IMG/VR virus record: IMGVR_UViG_3300022209_000002
Location: 1 to 50,253 of that record
From: a virus
Reading direction: 5' to 3' (one strand)
Length of the DNA: 50,253 nucleotides
The notes beneath the pieces are model-generated. The model had not been told where the DNA came from. It saw nothing but the letters and a program-made list of their open reading frames with translations, and made no database searches. Shown here in pieces: positions 17,514 through 25,136 of the stretch. Each line of letters starts with the position of its first letter. The first letter of the stretch is position 1. Position numbers and translations under genes: made by a program.

Positions 17514-17716
17514 TCCGCCTCCACTTTCTCCACGATCCTGTGGACCGACTCCTCCACCACCTTCGCCAGCTGCATCCGGGTCTCGTGGTGGAGGTAGTCC
17601 CGGAGCCGGTCGATCAACAGCTCGGACTTCTCGATCCGCTCGAGCAGCATCGGGATCAGGTCGTTCATTACCAGCTCCAGCTGCTCGTGGTCCGTCATGG
17701 GTTCGTGCGCGGTCAT
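17405..17716 (-). CDS. Helical coiled-coil early protein
   Basis: 103 residues, starting in a 4-base ATGA overlap with the initiator gene. Nearly the whole chain is predicted-helix in character with heptad-like hydrophobics (LLERIEKSELLIDRLRDYL, VVEESVHRIVEKVEAEW). It has no catalytic motif. By position directly after the initiator it could be a helicase-loader-like partner or a scaffold for the replisome, but nothing in the sequence proves this. Confidence 0.65.
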   Translation of the reverse strand: MTAHEPMTDHEQLELVMNDLIPMLLERIEKSELLIDRLRDYLHHETRMQLAKVVEESVHRIVEKVEAEWTGAFLPELRRTIRADVEAHLAQHVEARPAKLSDP

Positions 17717-18654
17717 TCGGCATCCTCCGCTCCTGTTGGGATGTAGCCGTGCTCGGCCAGGCGGGCGAGGATCTTATCCACGGCCTTCCGTTTCTTGGTG
17801 CCGGCTGCGGCCAGCTTCTCGACGGTCCCGCCTCCCTCTTTGCGTTTGAAGATGTGTTCGAGCTCATGGTACTCGCGGCCATCCTGCTGGTTGTGGTCCG
17901 CGTGGTGGAAGGCCCCCTCGACGGCCAGCAGGCAGTCTTCCAGCCCGTAAATCTGGAGGTAGCGCCTGAGTCGGGTCTTCCGGTCTTCCGTGAGCACAAC
18001 CCGCTTGCCGTTCTTCTTGGCACGCCAGGACCAGAAGGCGAAGACGGTGCGGGCTTCCCACAGCAGCCGGTGGCGATCGAACACGTCGGGCTCGAGGTCG
18101 TGCAGGGTCTCATTCACCCACTGGGCGGTCTCTTTGGCTGGCACGAGCGCTGTTCCGTTCGCAGAACGGGACAAACTCTCACCCTTTTTAGTAGGTGGAG
18201 ATCCTAACTGGGAATCCTTCTTACTTACTGCATCTGCTTCTACATCTGCTTCTGCTTCTACCGTGACATCGTTACGTGTCACGCTTGGTTGTGACATGTC
18301 ACGCTGCTGGCGACGAAAGCGGCTCTGCCGCTGGGCGTTCATAATCTGTTTGCGGGACCGCATCTCTCGGTATTTCTCGTAGTTGAGTAGGAGCCAGCCA
18401 CCCTCGACCTTCTCGACGCGCCGGCCGCCGTAGCTCTGGTCTTTGCTGTCGATGTCGGGGGCCACAAGGATCTCGAGCGCGCGCTTGCACTCCTCGAGAT
18501 TGACACGGGCCCGGTGGGCCAGGCCGGCCGTCGATGCCTCGACAATGCCGTACTCGTTGGCCATCGCAAGCATCGTAATCCAGACGATCCGGGTGCCGAT
18601 GTCTTCCATCCAGACGGACGAATCGAGGATCGAGCCGAACAGCTTCACATACAT
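17713..18654 (-). CDS. Replication initiator (DnaD/lambda O-like)
   Basis: 313 residues. Residues 1-100 form a winged-helix DNA-binding domain of phage replisome-organiser type (KLFGSILDSSVW, ARVNLEECKRALEIL, GGWLLLNYEKYREM). Residues about 115-165 are a low-complexity linker. The last part (VFAFWSWRAKKNGKRVV to YHELEHIFK) resembles the conserved C-terminal domain of phage initiators that contact the host helicase loader. It would melt the origin and recruit the host replisome. The DNA for the linker is AT-rich and carries repeats, matching the lambda arrangement where the origin lies inside gene O. A repeat of the same kind stands just upstream, suggesting self-control. Confidence 0.78.
   Translation of the reverse strand: MYVKLFGSILDSSVWMEDIGTRIVWITMLAMANEYGIVEASTAGLAHRARVNLEECKRALEILVAPDIDSKDQSYGGRRVEKVEGGWLLLNYEKYREMRSRKQIMNAQRQSRFRRQQRDMSQPSVTRNDVTVEAEADVEADAVSKKDSQLGSPPTKKGESLSRSANGTALVPAKETAQWVNETLHDLEPDVFDRHRLLWEARTVFAFWSWRAKKNGKRVVLTEDRKTRLRRYLQIYGLEDCLLAVEGAFHHADHNQQDGREYHELEHIFKRKEGGGTVEKLAAAGTKKRKAVDKILARLAEHGYIPTGAEDAE
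18171..18302. other. Candidate replication origin inside initiator gene
   Basis: Bases 18181-18260 are AT-rich by local standards (34 of 80 are G/C by my count). Next to them lie GTGACA-8-TGTCAC (18263-18282) and the perfect palindrome GTGACATGTCAC (18291-18302). The first matches the operator-like element at 18680-18712 almost base for base. A binding-site cluster beside an AT-rich stretch within the initiator gene is the known lambda-type origin design. Function is inferred. Confidence 0.6.
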
Positions 18655-18679: not shown

Positions 18680-18717
18680 GGGACCGTGACAATGCGTTAC
18701 TGTCACGGCCCCGTCAA
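18680..18717 (-). promoter_or_regulatory. Candidate promoter-operator for initiator gene
   Basis: Between recT and the initiator gene, reading on the minus strand: TTGACG (18717-18712), a 17-base spacer, CATTGT (18694-18689, a weak -10). An inverted repeat with arms containing GTGACA and TGTCAC (18686-18691 and 18701-18706, spacer 9) covers the spacer and -10. The same element recurs in the candidate origin. It could equally act as a stem-loop in RNA. Promoter call is weak; the inverted repeat is certain. Confidence 0.5.
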
Positions 18718-18722
18718 GAGTC

Positions 18723-19544
18723 CTACTGGTTCGCCTTCGCCTCCTCGAGCTTGAGTTTCAGCTCGTCCTGCCGGATCCTGGTTTCTTCATCGATCTTGGC
18801 CTCGAGCTCCTCCGCGTCTTCGCCCTCGATCGGCCGTGAAATCTTGCCCGCTTCGGCTCGGTTGTCGATCTCGACCAGATCAGCCAGACCGGGGATCTCG
18901 GTCACAGGTAAGCGCTTGTCGGCGAGGTATTTAATCGCCGATTTCAGGCCCATCCGATCGTACCAGTCCCGCCACGGGATGCCGTCTTTCATCGCCGAGC
19001 TGGCGCGGATCCGGTCCACCTCGGTCCGGTTCATTACGTGGAACACCGGGACCGGGGCGTTCCGGAGCCACGCGATCGCGTAGAAGTACAGGATCTCCTT
19101 GGGGCTCGACCGGTCGATCGAGTAGTCCGGCTTGTGGTGAATGGCCATTGTGCTGCCTTCCTGCACGTCGAACTCGTCTTCGGGGAAGACGGTCTTGGCG
19201 TCCAGCATCAGCACGAGCTGGGACCGGTAGCCGAGTGTGATGAACCCGCGGTAGTCCGGGATCATCTGACAGCGCCGCTTGTAGGGCACCAGGTGGGCCT
19301 CGCGGCCCAGCATGAGCCCGAGCCGGGCGGCATCGTAGACGGCATTGAGCACGCTGTTGGGGCTGCACTCGCCCAGGTCGTCATTCCGCGCGACCTCGAA
19401 TTGGGCGATCCGGACCAGCTGGGCGCCCGTGATCCCCGCCGTGCCCGGAATGATCTCGTCCAGTCGGGCCGCCCGCTTGTTGAGCATCTGGACGGCGGTG
19501 AAGTCTTTGCCGTCGATGGTGACGGTCGCAAGGGCTTTACCCAT
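18723..19544 (-). CDS. recT: RecT-family single-strand annealing protein
   Basis: 273 residues from the ATG at 19544, overlapping the end of the exonuclease gene by 8 bases; the open frame upstream to 19637 is not needed. RecT proteins coat single strands and anneal them to a complement. Family features are the CSPNSVLNAVYDAARLGL segment, LVPYKRRCQMIPDYRGFITL, and the GYRSQL motif, then a charged C-terminal tail (EAKIDEETRIRQDELKLKLE). Paired with the upstream YqaJ-type nuclease it forms a two-gene recombination system like lambda Exo/Beta. Confidence 0.9.
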   Translation of the reverse strand: MGKALATVTIDGKDFTAVQMLNKRAARLDEIIPGTAGITGAQLVRIAQFEVARNDDLGECSPNSVLNAVYDAARLGLMLGREAHLVPYKRRCQMIPDYRGFITLGYRSQLVLMLDAKTVFPEDEFDVQEGSTMAIHHKPDYSIDRSSPKEILYFYAIAWLRNAPVPVFHVMNRTEVDRIRASSAMKDGIPWRDWYDRMGLKSAIKYLADKRLPVTEIPGLADLVEIDNRAEAGKISRPIEGEDAEELEAKIDEETRIRQDELKLKLEEAKANQ

Positions 19545-20613
19545 GAGTCGGCTCCTGGTCGCTGATATGATAGACCCGCAGATCCTTGTACCGGCTGGGG
19601 TTCTTCCGGAACGCCTCGAGATCGGCGCGCAGCTCACCGGCCCGCACGTCAGCCTGAATCAGCGCAACGGCTTGGTCTTCTCCCATCCACGTTTGAAGCA
19701 GCTGCATGAGCCACGCCTGCACCCGCAGCGGATCGAGCAGGCCCGCGCCGAGTAGGCGCTTGGGGTCGATCGCACCCTGGCGCTCCCGCTCTTTGAAGTA
19801 GACCCGGGCGCCGGCGCCCTCGAATTGGCCCAGGTGGCCGCACTCGTCCCGCAGCGCTTGGCGCGCCTCCTCGTACAGCTCGTCGGCCTCCTGCTTGAGC
19901 GCTTTCATGTCCTGGAGCTTCTCGATGATGGCCCGCCAGCTCGGGTCCGTCCGGGGCTCGACCTCGCCCTCGACTTCGGGTAGGTCGATCGTCCATTCCG
20001 GGTCGCGTGGCTTGGGTGGCTGCTGGGGTACGACGTGGTTGTACCAGAAGTGCTCGCACACCTCGACGACCTGTTGCTGGATCGCCGGCTCGATCACGAC
20101 GGTTGGCGTGACGAATTGCCACGAGTCCGGCTGGAGGACAGCAAACGTGACCCAACGGTGCTTGCACAGCGTTCCGTAGTGGATGCCCTGGAGCTGGTTG
20201 TGTTCTGGGAGGCCGCGATCGACCACCTTCTTGAAGACGCCGCGCATCATGGTCTTCGCCTCGAAGACGCCGCGCTCGTCCGTGACCTCCTTCACGTCGT
20301 CGCGGGCCATTACCAGCGAGTCCGGGTGGCCGATCATCCATTTGTGCTCCGGATGGCGGCGGAACCGGGCGGGCTGGAGGCGCCGGCCAGAGCGCAGCTT
20401 GTAGAGCTGGCGGATCACAGGCTCGAGGAACCGGCCGCGCTCCTGGACGGGGGTGGGGGCTTCGTCAGGCTCGACTTCTCCCGTCTTCTCGAGGTACACA
20501 TCGAGCGCATTTCGGTACGGATCGACGCCCACGATGGCGCCGACATCCGAGCCACCTATTCCGGTCAGTCGCCGTCGGTGGAACTCGGCTCGGCTGCTCT
20601 TTGGGGTGTGCAT
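19537..20613 (-). CDS. YqaJ-type phage exonuclease
   Basis: 358 residues. Family signs of the lambda exonuclease/YqaJ fold: TGIGGSDVGAIVGVDPYRN near the start, GHPD (about residue 105) and the catalytic FEAKTMM (E-x-K) soon after. The enzyme resects double-strand ends 5' to 3' and hands single strands to RecT, whose gene overlaps its end. The C-terminal third is an added helical part (KALKQEADELYEEARQAL). A good AAGGAG site precedes ATG 20613. Confidence 0.88.
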   Translation of the reverse strand: MHTPKSSRAEFHRRRLTGIGGSDVGAIVGVDPYRNALDVYLEKTGEVEPDEAPTPVQERGRFLEPVIRQLYKLRSGRRLQPARFRRHPEHKWMIGHPDSLVMARDDVKEVTDERGVFEAKTMMRGVFKKVVDRGLPEHNQLQGIHYGTLCKHRWVTFAVLQPDSWQFVTPTVVIEPAIQQQVVEVCEHFWYNHVVPQQPPKPRDPEWTIDLPEVEGEVEPRTDPSWRAIIEKLQDMKALKQEADELYEEARQALRDECGHLGQFEGAGARVYFKERERQGAIDPKRLLGAGLLDPLRVQAWLMQLLQTWMGEDQAVALIQADVRAGELRADLEAFRKNPSRYKDLRVYHISDQEPTHG

Positions 20614-20730: not shown

Positions 20731-21156
20731 TTAGCGCTCCGACTGGGCGCGCGCTCCTCCCCTCTCGGCCTCGAGCTCCACGGCCACGATCTCAAACCAC
20801 CAGACCAACAGCGTCACGGTCCACTCGTTGTCGTTGGCCAGGATCATGAGCTCTGGGCGGGCCGGCCAGTCGATCGGCAGCCAGGTCCAGGCCCCACCAT
20901 GATCGTCCAGGCGGGCGACAAACCAGTAGTCGACTGCCCGGCTCGATTCGATCCCGTATCGGCCGAGATGGTGCCGCACGTGGTTCGCAGACGCCGGCAC
21001 GATCAGGAACGCATAGTGGCTGGCGTCGCCTGGCTCGAGCTTGACGACCGCGGGCTCGCCGCGGGCCAGCACACGGACCAACTCGCGCAGCTCGATGTTG
21101 ATGGGTTCGGGGTTCATCTGCTTCCCCGTGTGGTACAGCAGGTCTGCGTGCATCAT
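20731..21156 (-). CDS. Early protein, unknown
   Basis: 141 residues, starting in a 4-base ATGA overlap with the HTH gene. It is mixed strand and helix with several tryptophans (GGAWTWLPIDWPARPELMI, LVWWFEIVAVELE). The end is hydrophilic (ERGGARAQSER). No domain recognised. Tight coupling to the HTH gene suggests co-production. Confidence 0.65.
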   Translation of the reverse strand: MMHADLLYHTGKQMNPEPINIELRELVRVLARGEPAVVKLEPGDASHYAFLIVPASANHVRHHLGRYGIESSRAVDYWFVARLDDHGGAWTWLPIDWPARPELMILANDNEWTVTLLVWWFEIVAVELEAERGGARAQSER

Positions 21157-21446
21157 CGCAACACCTCGTCCAGTTTGGATTGGATGGATCGCGAGTAGTC
21201 GACGATCCGGCGCACCACCGCGGCCGGTACGGGTCGGTGGCCGTTCTCCCAGCCGTGCCAGCTCCGGAGGCAGACGCCGGCCCAGGCGGCCGCGCGCGCC
21301 TGGGTCCAGCCGCTCACTTGCTGGTTGTTACGGGCGCGGAACTCGCCGGCCTGGGCAAGCCGCCACGCCTCGAGCTCTGGGCCGCTGAGCGCGCCGCGGC
21401 CGAAGTCACGGCTCTGGATGAGCCGGCGAATGGCGGGGGTACTCAT
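21153..21446 (-). CDS. HTH DNA-binding protein
   Basis: 97 residues from ATG 21446; the longer frame upstream overlaps a zinc-finger gene and is not supported. Residues about 45-85 look like a helix-turn-helix of Xre or antitoxin type (WTQARAAAWAGVCLRSWHGWENG followed by PAAVVRRIVDY; here only the pattern matters). A serine/arginine tail follows. It is the best regulator candidate in the early block and could bind the operators at 25.2 and 27.65 kb, though nothing links them directly. Confidence 0.68.
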   Translation of the reverse strand: MSTPAIRRLIQSRDFGRGALSGPELEAWRLAQAGEFRARNNQQVSGWTQARAAAWAGVCLRSWHGWENGHRPVPAAVVRRIVDYSRSIQSKLDEVLR

Positions 21447-21613
21447 TGCGCCTTCCCGTTGCCACGCCGGCCGGTCGATACGGCGCGGACGCGCTCGAGG
21501 ACGCGGTTGATCGTCTTCTGCACGCATTCGAGGTTCCGGCAATAGGCCAGGTCGTTGACGTGCCCCCATATCTGGTCGCTGCCGCACACGACGCACTTCT
21601 CGGTGGTCGTCAT
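21443..21613 (-). CDS. 56-residue zinc-finger protein
   Basis: A short gene from ATG 21613 to TGA 21443, linked by 4-base overlaps on both sides (ATGA with the membrane protein upstream and with the HTH gene downstream). It reads CVVCGSDQIWG near the start and CRNLEC after it, a compact Cys4 zinc site, then a basic helix (INRVLERVRAVSTGRR). Coupling on both sides makes it convincing despite its size. Confidence 0.72.
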   Translation of the reverse strand: MTTTEKCVVCGSDQIWGHVNDLAYCRNLECVQKTINRVLERVRAVSTGRRGNGKAQ

Positions 21614-21959: not shown

Positions 21960-22262
21960 TTAGGCGGTGCCGGCGCGGCGCGAGCGTAGACTCGTGGGTT
22001 TCACGTGCCTGACAGCCCAGGAATAGCCGCAGGACTCGGAACAGAATCGGCCGTTGCCCTCGATGCCCCAGCCGGCCTGGAAGCTCACACTGAACGGGAA
22101 GTCTTCCTGTGTTCGGCGTCGGCGCGGGCGCCGAGCGGGATCCAGGAGGTCGACGAAATCCGCCGCCTCATCATCCGACTCGAAGCTCCGCTCGAGCCGG
22201 TACGCGCGCAACGGTTTGTCGCAGCTCACGCACTTCGGTCCGTCGGTTCGTTGCTTCGCCAT
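21960..22262 (-). CDS. Zinc-binding early protein
   Basis: 100 residues from the ATG at 22262, sharing a base with the exonuclease stop (TGATG). CVSCDKP near the start and FCSESCGYSW near the end give the four cysteines of a zinc site, separated by an acidic, Arg-rich linker. The spacing resembles treble-clef proteins common in phage early regions. Role unknown. Confidence 0.68.
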   Translation of the reverse strand: MAKQRTDGPKCVSCDKPLRAYRLERSFESDDEAADFVDLLDPARRPRRRRTQEDFPFSVSFQAGWGIEGNGRFCSESCGYSWAVRHVKPTSLRSRRAGTA

Positions 22263-22996
22263 CAGATCGCCAGTCTGACCCGATCGTACAGGTCGATGAG
22301 GGTTTGCATCTCCTGGGTGCCGTAGCGGGCCAGCTCGTCCCACTGGCCAGCGAGCGCCCAGCCCAGGACGTGGTGCCCCGCCTCGCGTGCCTCGATACCG
22401 AACGCCTCAGACCACACGCTCAACGTCCCTCGAGCTCGCCGGTCGCCGTCGCTGAACAGCAGCCGCAGGTCGATGTGCTCCTGGTGCCGGTAGGGGTAGA
22501 GCAGCTCGTACCACTTGAACGTCGGCAGCTGGATTCCCAGGAGGGCCGACCGCCAGCGCATCATCGGCAGGTCAAAGCCCTTGCCGTTGAACGTGACTAG
22601 CACCTTCCGGGTCTCGAGTGCCCGGGCCACGAGCCGCCAGCTCTCGCGCAGGATCTCCCGCTCGAGGTCGCGCTGCTCGAGCTCGGTGAACTCATCCCAC
22701 GGGTTTGGATCAGCGATGGTGGACACCTGGACCGTCTTGGTCTGGATCCCCTTGGTGTCGTCAAGCCAGCCCATCGAGACACTCACGACCTGGCCGGTGA
22801 TTGGGTGGCAGGCCGGGATGGTGCCCGTGATTTTCAGCGGGTACTTCCCTTGCTCGATGGCGACGGGTTCGCCGGCCTCGCCCTCGGGCGCGTCAGTCTC
22901 GATGTCGTCGCTGTCCATCTTGTACGGATCGCGCCACCGTCGTTGCGGCACGGTCTCGATGTCCAGGGCGAACGGTGCTCCTCGTGGTGGGGCCAT
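22262..22996 (-). CDS. 3'-5' exonuclease, RNase H-like (DnaQ/PolB exo type)
   Basis: 244 residues from the ATG at 22996, in a TAATG junction with the upstream gene; the frame to 23194 lies over that gene. Motif I is FALDIET (D-x-E) near residue 10, motif II is VTFNGKGFDLPMM with the Asp of the DEDD set, and the end carries RYGTQEMQTLIDLYDRV, fitting motif III. Such enzymes proofread or trim 3' ends. With no polymerase encoded here, it probably acts on host-made DNA or on recombination ends. An acidic insert follows motif I. Confidence 0.78.
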   Translation of the reverse strand: MAPPRGAPFALDIETVPQRRWRDPYKMDSDDIETDAPEGEAGEPVAIEQGKYPLKITGTIPACHPITGQVVSVSMGWLDDTKGIQTKTVQVSTIADPNPWDEFTELEQRDLEREILRESWRLVARALETRKVLVTFNGKGFDLPMMRWRSALLGIQLPTFKWYELLYPYRHQEHIDLRLLFSDGDRRARGTLSVWSEAFGIEAREAGHHVLGWALAGQWDELARYGTQEMQTLIDLYDRVRLAI

Positions 22997-23214
22997 TAGG
23001 GCGCTCCTCGGTGGATGGCTGGCGACGGGTCGCGCGAGCGATCGCGCTTGGGGTGTCGCGTCAGGGTGAGCACGTTGTTGACTGCCTCGAGCAGCGCCGG
23101 CGTCGGGTTCGGCTGATCGAGTGCCGCGTTGAGCAGCCGGCGCGCGGCCTTCCCGTGCTTCTTGTCTTTGTGCTGGTCTGGTGGGCCGTCCCACATCTGG
23201 CTAGGACTCGGCAT
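22996..23214 (-). CDS. Small basic early protein
   Basis: 72 residues from ATG 23214. A polar start (KDKKHGKAARRLLNAALDQP) leads to one clear helix (TPALLEAVNNVLTLT) and a basic end (HPKRDRSRDPS). No family recognised. It couples to the exonuclease gene through TAATG and may help it bind DNA, but that is only an inference from charge and place. Confidence 0.62.
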   Translation of the reverse strand: MPSPSQMWDGPPDQHKDKKHGKAARRLLNAALDQPNPTPALLEAVNNVLTLTRHPKRDRSRDPSPAIHRGAP

Positions 23215-23218
23215 AGCT

Positions 23219-23686
23219 CTACTCCTCCTCGTGTCGACGTAGCCGGGCCATGAAGGCCCGCGCTGCTGGTCGGGCCCAGGCCCGGGCGAGGCGCCGGCGA
23301 TTGTTCCGCTCGTGCTGGGGCTGGCACGCGAACATCCAGCGGCACTCGCGCGGCTTCGCCTCGTGAATCGAACAGAGCCCGTCGGGATGGTGGAGTCCAC
23401 ACGGGCGGCTGGTCCACATCGGCCAGGCCCAGCTGGCGTCCTCGCCGGCCCGGAGGCCGTCGGCAAACGGGATGGGCACCAGTGGCTGCTGGCAGTCGCA
23501 CGGCTCCTCCTGGTCGTGGAGCGGGCACCCGATCCAGTGGTCGAACGCCAAGTGCGTGCGGAACAGCTCGCGCGGGCTGCACCCCAGGTGCTGCGCGAGC
23601 CGTCGCACGTCGTTAGGGCCGAGCCAGCCGGGCATGTGTGTGCAGCAGCTCCGGCAGGCGTCACAGGCGCAGCCGGGCGCCGTCAA
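23219..23686 (-). CDS. YkgJ-like CxxCxxCC metal-site protein
   Basis: 155 residues from TTG 23686, a TTGA overlap with the upstream gene; the open frame to 23869 runs over that gene. The start carries CACDACRSCC, the cysteine signature of the YkgJ/UPF0153 family, which binds a metal or iron-sulfur centre. Further cysteines lie at CPLH, CDCQ, CGLHHPDGLCS and CRWMFAC. The end is basic (NNRRRLARAW). The biochemical role of the family is unclear. A rare TTG start is the weak point. Confidence 0.65.
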   Translation of the reverse strand: MTAPGCACDACRSCCTHMPGWLGPNDVRRLAQHLGCSPRELFRTHLAFDHWIGCPLHDQEEPCDCQQPLVPIPFADGLRAGEDASWAWPMWTSRPCGLHHPDGLCSIHEAKPRECRWMFACQPQHERNNRRRLARAWARPAARAFMARLRRHEEE

Positions 23687-24525
23687 ATCCCGAGAGCCGT
23701 GAGCCCGGGCGATTGCTTCCCCTCTAGGGCTCGCCGGGTGTAAGCGATCGCATCCCGGCCCGCGTTGTTCAGGTGGCGCAGCCACACCACCCGGGTCGGG
23801 CTCCAGCGCCACCCGTAGCGGCGCATGAGCTGGCACGTGGGCCGATCGGGTTTCGTGTCGAACTCCCACCAGATGCGGTTCTCTTCCGGGTGCTCGGTGA
23901 TCTTGTAGCCGGGCCCCTCGATCGCCGGCGTTGGGCTCGCGGTCTCCGGATCCGGTCGGCTTTCCAGCTCCTTGATGCGGTCCCGGACGCGCCGGATGTT
24001 GGCGCCGAGATTCTGGAAGAAATAGCCCGGGTACACCTTGTGCTTGTCCGGTACCCAGGGCGCGCCGGGCTCCTGCTGGCTCTGCATCGTGGCGTCAATT
24101 CGCGCGGCGGTGTCGTCCCTCATGTCCGGGAACCCGCGCAGCGTGCTATGCTTGCGCCAGTAGGCGTTGATCTGTTTCGCCTGGTCGCGTTGGCGCTCCA
24201 TCGTGGCCAGCCCGGCCTGTAGCTTGGCGACCGCGCCGGGGTCGTCGCTGCTGATCCCACCGCTCCCCACTCTGGCGGCGGCCGCCTCGAGCCGCTTGGC
24301 CTCGTCGGTCGCCTCGATCGCCTTGCGGGTGTTGGTGTGCATCTTCTCGATGTCGCGGCGGTGCCGCTTCTCCGAATGGTGGCCGACTAGGATGGGCTGG
24401 CCCTGCATCACCCGGCCCAGGTCGTCGCTCGTGGCGTGCCGGCGCTCGGCTTCGGCGCGCAGTCGTGCGGCCTTGTTCCGCATACGCTCGCGCCGTGCCT
24501 CTTGGCGTGTCTCGTAGTCGTTCAC
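23683..24525 (-). CDS. DUF3560-like protein
   Basis: 280 residues from GTG 24525 in a GTGA overlap. The first 100 residues match the DUF3560 pattern: a charged helical start (YETRQEARRERMRNKAARLR), then PILVGHHSEKRHRRDIEKM. The rest holds coiled-coil-like helices and a C-terminal strand-rich part (ENRIWWEFDTKPDRPTC, YGWRWSPTRVVWLR). DUF3560 proteins occur on plasmids and phages; their role is unknown. The gene follows the promoter at 25.2 kb as second in the operon. Confidence 0.75.
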   Translation of the reverse strand: MNDYETRQEARRERMRNKAARLRAEAERRHATSDDLGRVMQGQPILVGHHSEKRHRRDIEKMHTNTRKAIEATDEAKRLEAAAARVGSGGISSDDPGAVAKLQAGLATMERQRDQAKQINAYWRKHSTLRGFPDMRDDTAARIDATMQSQQEPGAPWVPDKHKVYPGYFFQNLGANIRRVRDRIKELESRPDPETASPTPAIEGPGYKITEHPEENRIWWEFDTKPDRPTCQLMRRYGWRWSPTRVVWLRHLNNAGRDAIAYTRRALEGKQSPGLTALGI

Positions 24526-25136
24526 TGGAGGATCCCTACCAACTGCTCGAGCTGGCTGCTTGTCAGCTGGACGTGATCGAGCCGCCAGCTCTTGCCGTCG
24601 TAGCTGGTCGCGCGATAGATCCCCGGCAGGTACAGCGTCACGCCCTCGCCGTTGCCGTTCTGACTGATCGATCCGCCCAGCTTGGCCACTAACCGTTCGG
24701 CTTCCTGCTGGCGGGTGTCGATCTCTTCCCGGATCTCGCGCGCTCGAGTCACCATCAGCGCAAAGACGCGGCTGTATTCGGGCCAGAAGCGCCGCGCGAT
24801 GTCGGCCGCAATCTTCTCGGGTGTCTTCGTCAGACTCACCGTAATGCTGAAATCGTGCTGGCGGTTCTGGTTGGGCATTTCGTCCCGCGGTAGGATGTCC
24901 CGCGGTAGGAACGCGCAGGTGCCGCGCGGGTCGTCTGGCCACAGTCCGTCAATGTGCAGCCGGCCCTTGGCTCGGGTTGTGTTCATCCAGACGGCTCGGC
25001 CGTCGGCGTGGGTCAGTCGGGCGCTCCATTGGTTGCGGACCTCTTCCTCGTAGCGCTCGTATCGCAACGCCAGCCGGCTTGCTCTGGCGATCGCGCTTGC
25101 GAGCGCTGGTAGGTTCAGCTCTGCGGGCTGCGTCAT
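24522..25136 (-). CDS. Early protein, unknown; first gene after promoter P1
   Basis: 204 residues from ATG 25136 with a GAGGAG site; about 40 bases of leader separate it from the promoter at 25.2 kb. It has a helical start, a strand-rich middle and a helical region (EIREEIDTRQQEAERLVAKL), then short strands. A 13-base tandem repeat in the gene gives the residues LPRDILPRD. No family recognised. As first gene of a strong promoter it is probably abundant early in infection and could be an annealing, nucleotide or host-takeover protein. Confidence 0.7.
   Translation of the reverse strand: MTQPAELNLPALASAIARASRLALRYERYEEEVRNQWSARLTHADGRAVWMNTTRAKGRLHIDGLWPDDPRGTCAFLPRDILPRDEMPNQNRQHDFSITVSLTKTPEKIAADIARRFWPEYSRVFALMVTRAREIREEIDTRQQEAERLVAKLGGSISQNGNGEGVTLYLPGIYRATSYDGKSWRLDHVQLTSSQLEQLVGILQ
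24883..24910. repeat. Short tandem repeat inside a coding region
   Basis: TCCCGCGGTAGGA occurs at 24883-24895 and 24898-24910, period 15, in frame, giving a repeated LPRD peptide in the gene at 24522-25136. It may be a recent slip duplication. Confidence 0.6.

Follow-up and report, generated by a model that had tools for sequence, protein, structure and literature searches.

Replication origins that lie inside the gene of their own initiator have been described for several phages. In lambdoid phages, iterons (each of them an imperfect inverted repeat) and an AT-rich region are located within gene O (PMC7466680), the replisome organisers of phages TP901-1 and Tuc2009 bind direct repeats inside their own genes, which serve as ori (PMC8965321), and in phage SPP1 the initiator gp38 binds at oriL, which is found inside gene 38 and consists of direct repeats and a DNA unwinding element (PMC6316719). 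As in-gene origins are established in the lambdoids, SPP1, TP901-1 and Tuc2009, the type of origin considered here is already known. The RepE protein of plasmid F binds as a dimer to inverted repeats before repE (PMC13028717).

The locus analyzed here is part of a viral DNA sequence of 50,253 nucleotides (IMG/VR record IMGVR_UViG_3300022209_000002), hereafter referred to as the window. Like the lambda ori in gene O, it has clustered repeats in the middle of an initiator gene (18263-18302 within 17713-18654) with an AT-rich tract adjoining, and an O-like C-domain is present in one relative of the window gene (L041). Unlike in lambda, the window protein has no recognizable O N-domain, the tract is made up of CAGA hexanucleotides, a copy of the site is located upstream of the gene, and most relatives of the gene have hexamers phased at 10/11 bp instead of the 19-bp iterons of lambda. 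The window shares with TP901-1, Tuc2009, r1t and SPP1 the repeats in the initiator's own gene and the AT-rich element, and orf11 of r1t also has the same DNA layout, but the N-domain sequence of the window protein differs and its sites are inverted as well as direct. Furthermore, tracts of the Gram-positive organisers are of an A/T type, whereas those of the window's family are of a CAG type (a C precedes AGA in 87% of the units against a background of 29%, which holds in the lower-GC subset). As with RepE of plasmid F, sites of one type make up an origin-like array and also precede the initiator gene as an inverted pair; the F origin lies outside the gene, however, and the origin-like array of the window inside it. 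The basal unwinding system of Bacillus subtilis (DnaA-trios/DnaD recognition element; PMC10201434) likewise combines double-strand initiator sites with a subsequent tract of short period, possibly read as a single strand, but no DnaA box was found in the 50,253-nt window and the (ACAGAT)n tracts of some relatives have no TnnT on their complement. A reading of the tract as a DnaD recognition element (TnnT) was rejected for this reason, since it did not fit all relatives.

The initiator gene and its neighborhood

The coordinates of all features are compiled in Table 1. For the 313-residue initiator protein, AlphaFold2 predicted a winged-helix N-domain (residues about 5-92), a long helix extending to residue 120, a linker (residues 131-172) and a C-domain that was modeled as helical with moderate confidence. 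The pLDDT values were mostly 93-98 for the block of residues 11-120 and mostly below 50 for the linker. An earlier sequence-only reading of the window had placed the repeats in the linker-coding part of the gene, and this location was correct, residues 131-172 being mostly disordered in the prediction. The N-domain was superposed on winged helices of the CAP/CRP type (VIA-align, Z 8-9 over about 63 residues), which suggests a DNA-binding type of fold and nothing beyond, and is read here simply as 'winged helix'.

Searches with the initiator protein gave no Foldseek match in the PDB at E ≤ 0.001, nothing informative in a PDB sequence search, nothing in the PHROG search at E ≤ 1e-3, no match to lambda O models, and no useful tblastn match among named phages and plasmids. 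The sequence-only reading had described the protein as DnaD-type. The winged-helix N-domain and the resemblance of the family to DnaD-like or O-like phage initiators make this description loosely apt, but in model searches the window protein reached phrog_186 at E = 0.08 only and matched no Pfam DnaD model.

The gene is embedded in a replication-recombination block (recE-recT ... rusA) encoding a RecE/YqaJ exonuclease, RecT and a RusA resolvase. No helicase or helicase loader was recognized among the window ORFs searched. A helix-turn-helix (HTH) protein is encoded near the initiator locus (21153-21596), and a PolB-type exonuclease gene (22262-23194) is found near a minus-strand gene (23683-24942) with a DUF3560 domain (PF12083) and a primase PHROG match (phrog_19458). 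The same phage, identical across the query stretch, was encountered in a contig binned in a Gemmatimonadota MAG (L084/L085; JAOTVV010000018.1, 60,016 bp), in which the initiator gene is present twice with the copies about 50 kb apart, an arrangement that fits a circular or terminally redundant genome.

Table 1. Features of the initiator locus (window coordinates; strand as -, or. where none applies).
Feature	Position	Strand	Evidence
Initiator/replisome-organiser gene, 313 aa	17713..18654	-	ORF, AlphaFold2 model, PHROG annotations of relatives, gene context
recT (single-strand annealing protein), neighbor upstream of the initiator gene	18723..19556	-	phrog_148 E = 1.9e-42, PF03837 E = 5.8e-29
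Candidate initiator site pair GTGACA-N8-TGTCAC, half-site-like GTTACG inside	18263..18282	.	Sequence, shuffles, recodings
Candidate initiator site pair GTGACATGTCAC, perfect 12-bp palindrome	18291..18302	.	Sequence, shuffles, recodings
Third copy, GTGACA-N9-TGTCAC (GTGACAATGCGTTACTGTCAC), candidate autoregulatory operator, strong hairpin	18686..18706	.	
AT-rich stretch, candidate DNA unwinding element	18171..18264	.	Holds the lowest-GC 80-mer of the window
Hexanucleotide tract GTAGAA GCAGAA GCAGAT GTAGAA GCAGAT GCAGTA (coding strand)	18226..18261	-	

Palindromes, AT-rich stretch and tract

Both palindromic elements named in the sequence-only reading, GTGACA-8-TGTCAC and GTGACATGTCAC, are present, and a third copy that had been missed (GTGACAATGCGTTACTGTCAC) lies in the 68 bp that separate recT from the initiator gene, 31 nt before the start codon of the latter. 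The pattern GTGACA-N(0-12)-TGTCAC occurred three times in the window, in all cases at the initiator locus, and 0 times in 100 shuffles, the number of the three sites expected by chance being about zero. The pairing and clustering are the unusual part, because the GTGACA half site alone was not enriched in the window (25 occurrences vs. 23.9 expected). When the linker was recoded synonymously 200,000 times with the codon usage of the gene itself, one palindrome was obtained at most (2,433 times), and neither two palindromes nor four half sites ever appeared. Coding constraint therefore fails to explain the palindromes, which encode residues about 118-131.

The AT-rich stretch encodes residues about 135-162. 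The reported 80 bases with 34 G/C beside the palindromes were confirmed at 18171-18250, which contain exactly 34 G/C and represent the lowest-GC 80-mer of the window. The six 80-mers with at most 34 G/C are all confined to 18171-18264, the most AT-rich place of the 50-kb phage. The GC content at third codon positions (GC3) of the 16 tract codons (residues 135-150) was 0.25 compared with 0.80 expected, and on the complement of the tract CTG or CTA recurs in one 6-nt register (18228, 18234, 18240, 18246, 18252, and 18258). A GC-skew plot, which had been proposed as a check of the origin, was calculated for the window and showed no usable extremum at 18.2 kb; since the skew follows the gene strand, it cannot locate the origin here.

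Relatives of the initiator gene

Viral contigs were scanned for the double-palindrome DNA pattern alone, which retrieved one other phage (L003/L010), and the matched gene was a homolog with an N-domain 56% identical to that of the window protein and with sites at the same place in the linker. A profile constructed from these two N-domains yielded 80 viral and 6 genomic loci. One further candidate (L002), with neither a homologous ORF nor palindromes, was rejected as a relative. The PHROG annotations of the relatives were replication initiation, O-like, primosomal or DnaD-like; the organiser model phrog_4880 was matched by 3 of 58 relatives, as was phrog_186 at E ≤ 1e-3 (3/58). The C-domain of L041 matched the O protein of HK022 and Sf6, and a DnaT C-domain was identified in one relative. 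Among a set of relatives (L041, L087, L073/L074/L080/L081, L019, and L038), the N-domain and putative origin linker were joined to exchangeable C-domains (O-like, DnaT), and some of these proteins stop right after the linker at about 140-160 aa, i.e., they comprise the presumed DNA reader and origin only.

Layout shared by the linkers

In most relatives, a hexamer particular to each is repeated at 10/11-bp steps in the linker, for example GTAACG (six copies in L018 at steps of 11, 10, 11, 10, and 11 bp), TGTCCC, GTCAAC, GTGGAC or TCCGAC, and its copies within single genes fall in different codon frames. The form of the window among these relatives is GTGAC/GTCAC in both orientations. Autocorrelation of the hexamers in 69 non-redundant homologs relative to a synonymous-codon null gave z-scores of 27.5, 17.7, 13.5, 9.1, 10.0, and 9.2 at lags 10, 11, 20, 21, 31, and 32, respectively, and one representative per 70% N-domain identity (n = 28) gave 15.1 at lag 10, 7.3 at lag 11, and 10.2 at lag 20, where all z-scores take the loci as given and kinship is reduced by the 70% filter alone. 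Judging from these lags, the spacing tracks the DNA helix and not the codons.

The sequence-only reading had set the inverted palindromes of the window against the plain direct iterons of lambda and had suggested a different way of loading the initiator. This contrast fails because the lambda iterons, too, are inverted repeats, if imperfect ones (PMC7466680). Moreover, direct repeats at 10/11-bp steps are found in most relatives, and the window, with few sites (four GTGACA half sites plus GTTACG) in a mixed orientation unusual for the family, represents a minority form.

The array is adjoined by a hexanucleotide tract of the form (N)CAGA(N), with at least three units in 51 of 70 cases. The encoded peptide is usually AEAEAE, in other cases KQKQKQ or SRSR, and SVSVSV where the tract is on the opposite strand. 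The GC3 of the tract across the family was 0.12, compared with 0.56 predicted by the codons used for these residues in the rest of the gene (p = 2e-9), and 0.09 vs. 0.60 for the representatives (n = 28, p = 1e-6). The distance from array to tract was exactly 15 nt in 9 of the 13 GTAACG loci. In Pseudomonas phage Marin (L284) and Aeromonas phage pAEv1818 (L285), arrays of TGTCAC/CGTCAC at 10/10/11 bp were observed in the part coding for the N-domain, and thus outside the linker, so that the position of the array within the gene can shift.

Sites upstream of the start codon

Considering the 50 loci in which the hexamer is present at least three times, 27 showed their own hexamer again in the 80 nt preceding the start codon (55 copies), compared with 3.5 copies (3.0 loci) expected in a control using the hexamers of other classes. 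Linker and upstream sites therefore change together, as it is the phage's own hexamer and not a foreign one that recurs upstream; on sequence grounds, such a co-change would be expected if the product of the gene itself reads both. When residues of the N-domain were sorted by eye against hexamer class, no clean rule emerged, and the N-domain is for this reason referred to as the putative reader of the sites. In the window, an inverted half-site pair is present before the initiator gene (18686-18706), as in iteron-type autoregulated initiators. A promoter scan around 18686-18706 gave nothing.

The linker as a putative origin and alternative explanations

Judging from the sequence patterns described above, the replication origin of this phage very likely coincides with the linker-coding part of its initiator gene and consists of a site array and an unwinding element, with an autoregulatory operator in addition. 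An origin-like element inside the initiator gene had already been proposed in the sequence-only reading, and this proposal is supported by the same placement in about 70 homologs, by the known phage systems and by r1t orf11. The linker is disordered, and its DNA is thus free to carry an origin. The winged-helix N-domain would bind the GTGACA/TGTCAC half sites, arranged as hexamers on one face of the helix or, in the window, as inverted pairs. Strain from the nucleoprotein complex formed by the bound protomers would open the AT-rich CAGA-type tract beside it, and the helicase or its loader would be recruited by the C-domain. By binding the third copy, which lies in the gap behind recT, the initiator may repress its own gene, like RepE of plasmid F.

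The site copy just upstream of the start codon, the recurrence of the hexamer at this place in many relatives, and the HTH protein encoded nearby would also be compatible with a purely regulatory role, in which transcription would be controlled at the palindromes, serving as operators for the initiator or some other regulator of the phage, and replication would start at another place. However, the densest sites are found in the middle of the gene, with a conserved tract and the genome's most AT-rich stretch next to them. This arrangement is a proven origin in SPP1, TP901-1, Tuc2009 and lambda, and a pure operator leaves the directional tract unexplained; we therefore regard this role as improbable. 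It is very unlikely that the palindromes act as RNA or DNA stem-loops (terminators or cruciforms): the upstream copy does fold well (z = -5.2), the mid-gene pair somewhat (z = -2.4), and one terminator-like match was obtained at 18262-18283 on the strand opposite to the initiator gene, but the upstream copy has no T-run behind it on the strand of the gene and the direct repeats of most relatives are unable to form hairpins.

The DNA repeats could also be a by-product of a low-complexity linker peptide (VT.., AEAEAE), given that the linker is of low complexity and often periodic at 7 residues (21 nt). Yet the period of 10/11 bp is no multiple of three, the synonymous nulls fail to reproduce the repeats, A/T occupies the third positions in genes otherwise rich in GC, one DNA sequence yields different peptides depending on frame and strand, and copies are located in the upstream non-coding DNA. 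An origin of the repeats at the protein level has hardly any probability in our estimation, and as their sole cause it was ruled out by the synonymous and frame tests.

Array and tract in other initiator families

A scan for GTAACG arrays that was blind to the encoded protein gave at least 120 stretches, and 123 loci were examined among the matches listed. Sixty of these 123 loci, among the matches listed, were closely followed downstream, on the strand of the array, by at least three AGA units repeating every 6 nt, and the opposite tract orientation was found in 1 of 123 among the matches listed and 0 in shuffles. Many of the tract-bearing genes among the matches listed were replisome organisers of the NCBI model TIGR01714 (e.g., in L107 and L120) or belonged to other initiator families. 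Orf11 of r1t has four copies of GGAACC at 11-bp steps and a AGATAAGAATAGATT tract, and Escherichia phage Tritos has five copies of TGTCAC at steps of 10/10/11/10 bp with an ACAGAT/AAAGAT tract. For TP901-1 rep, no 10/11-bp hexamer array was identified by the criterion used here. Gram-positive organiser genes of the TIGR01714 type and r1t orf11 (L107, L113, L120, L124, L276-L281, and L273, the latter being r1t) combined array and AGA tract despite differing N-domains, and the linker peptides DIDIDKELDKE, EEEREEE, and DKNRLDKNR of Gram-positive organisers follow from the DNA tract.

It is conceivable, though in our view rather doubtful, that one general two-part origin code is written in the disordered linkers of several unrelated phage initiator families, namely a directional, helically phased and phage-specific hexamer array followed at a near-fixed distance by a strand-specific AGA hexanucleotide tract. 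The tract would then be read as a single strand and not be a mere AT-rich melting zone, and the CTG found every 6 nt in the window's family might be a primer-start or helicase-loading strip. Gammaproteobacterial primases use CTG efficiently as a start triplet (PMC5204125). The switch from CTG to CTA that is expected under the primase idea is at best weak in Firmicutes-type tracts, where the bases preceding AGA hardly deviate from background (T 26% vs. 21%, C 16% vs. 22%), and the primase reading therefore stays tentative. No description of the general layout of hexamers and AGA tract was found in the open-licence PMC papers searched, and compared with this literature the two-part layout looks new.

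If the reading of the linker as an origin is correct, raw sequence would suffice to recognize the origins of very many phages in which the start of replication has not yet been located, as the layout shows up within the initiator gene. Odd linker peptides of phage initiators (AEAEAE, KQKQKQ, DIDIDKE) would likewise reflect a constraint at the DNA level and not protein function. The phage-specific hexamers, repeated in the putative upstream operator, would represent a natural set for learning how winged-helix initiators choose their sites. The tract raises the question whether its repeated triplet serves for melting only or is read as a single strand by a helicase loader or primase. Finally, the replication gene of Campylobacter phage CJLB-5 (L289; MW057932.1) resembles a Gram-positive replisome organiser and has an A/T-type tract, and Campylobacter as the host on record may be wrong.
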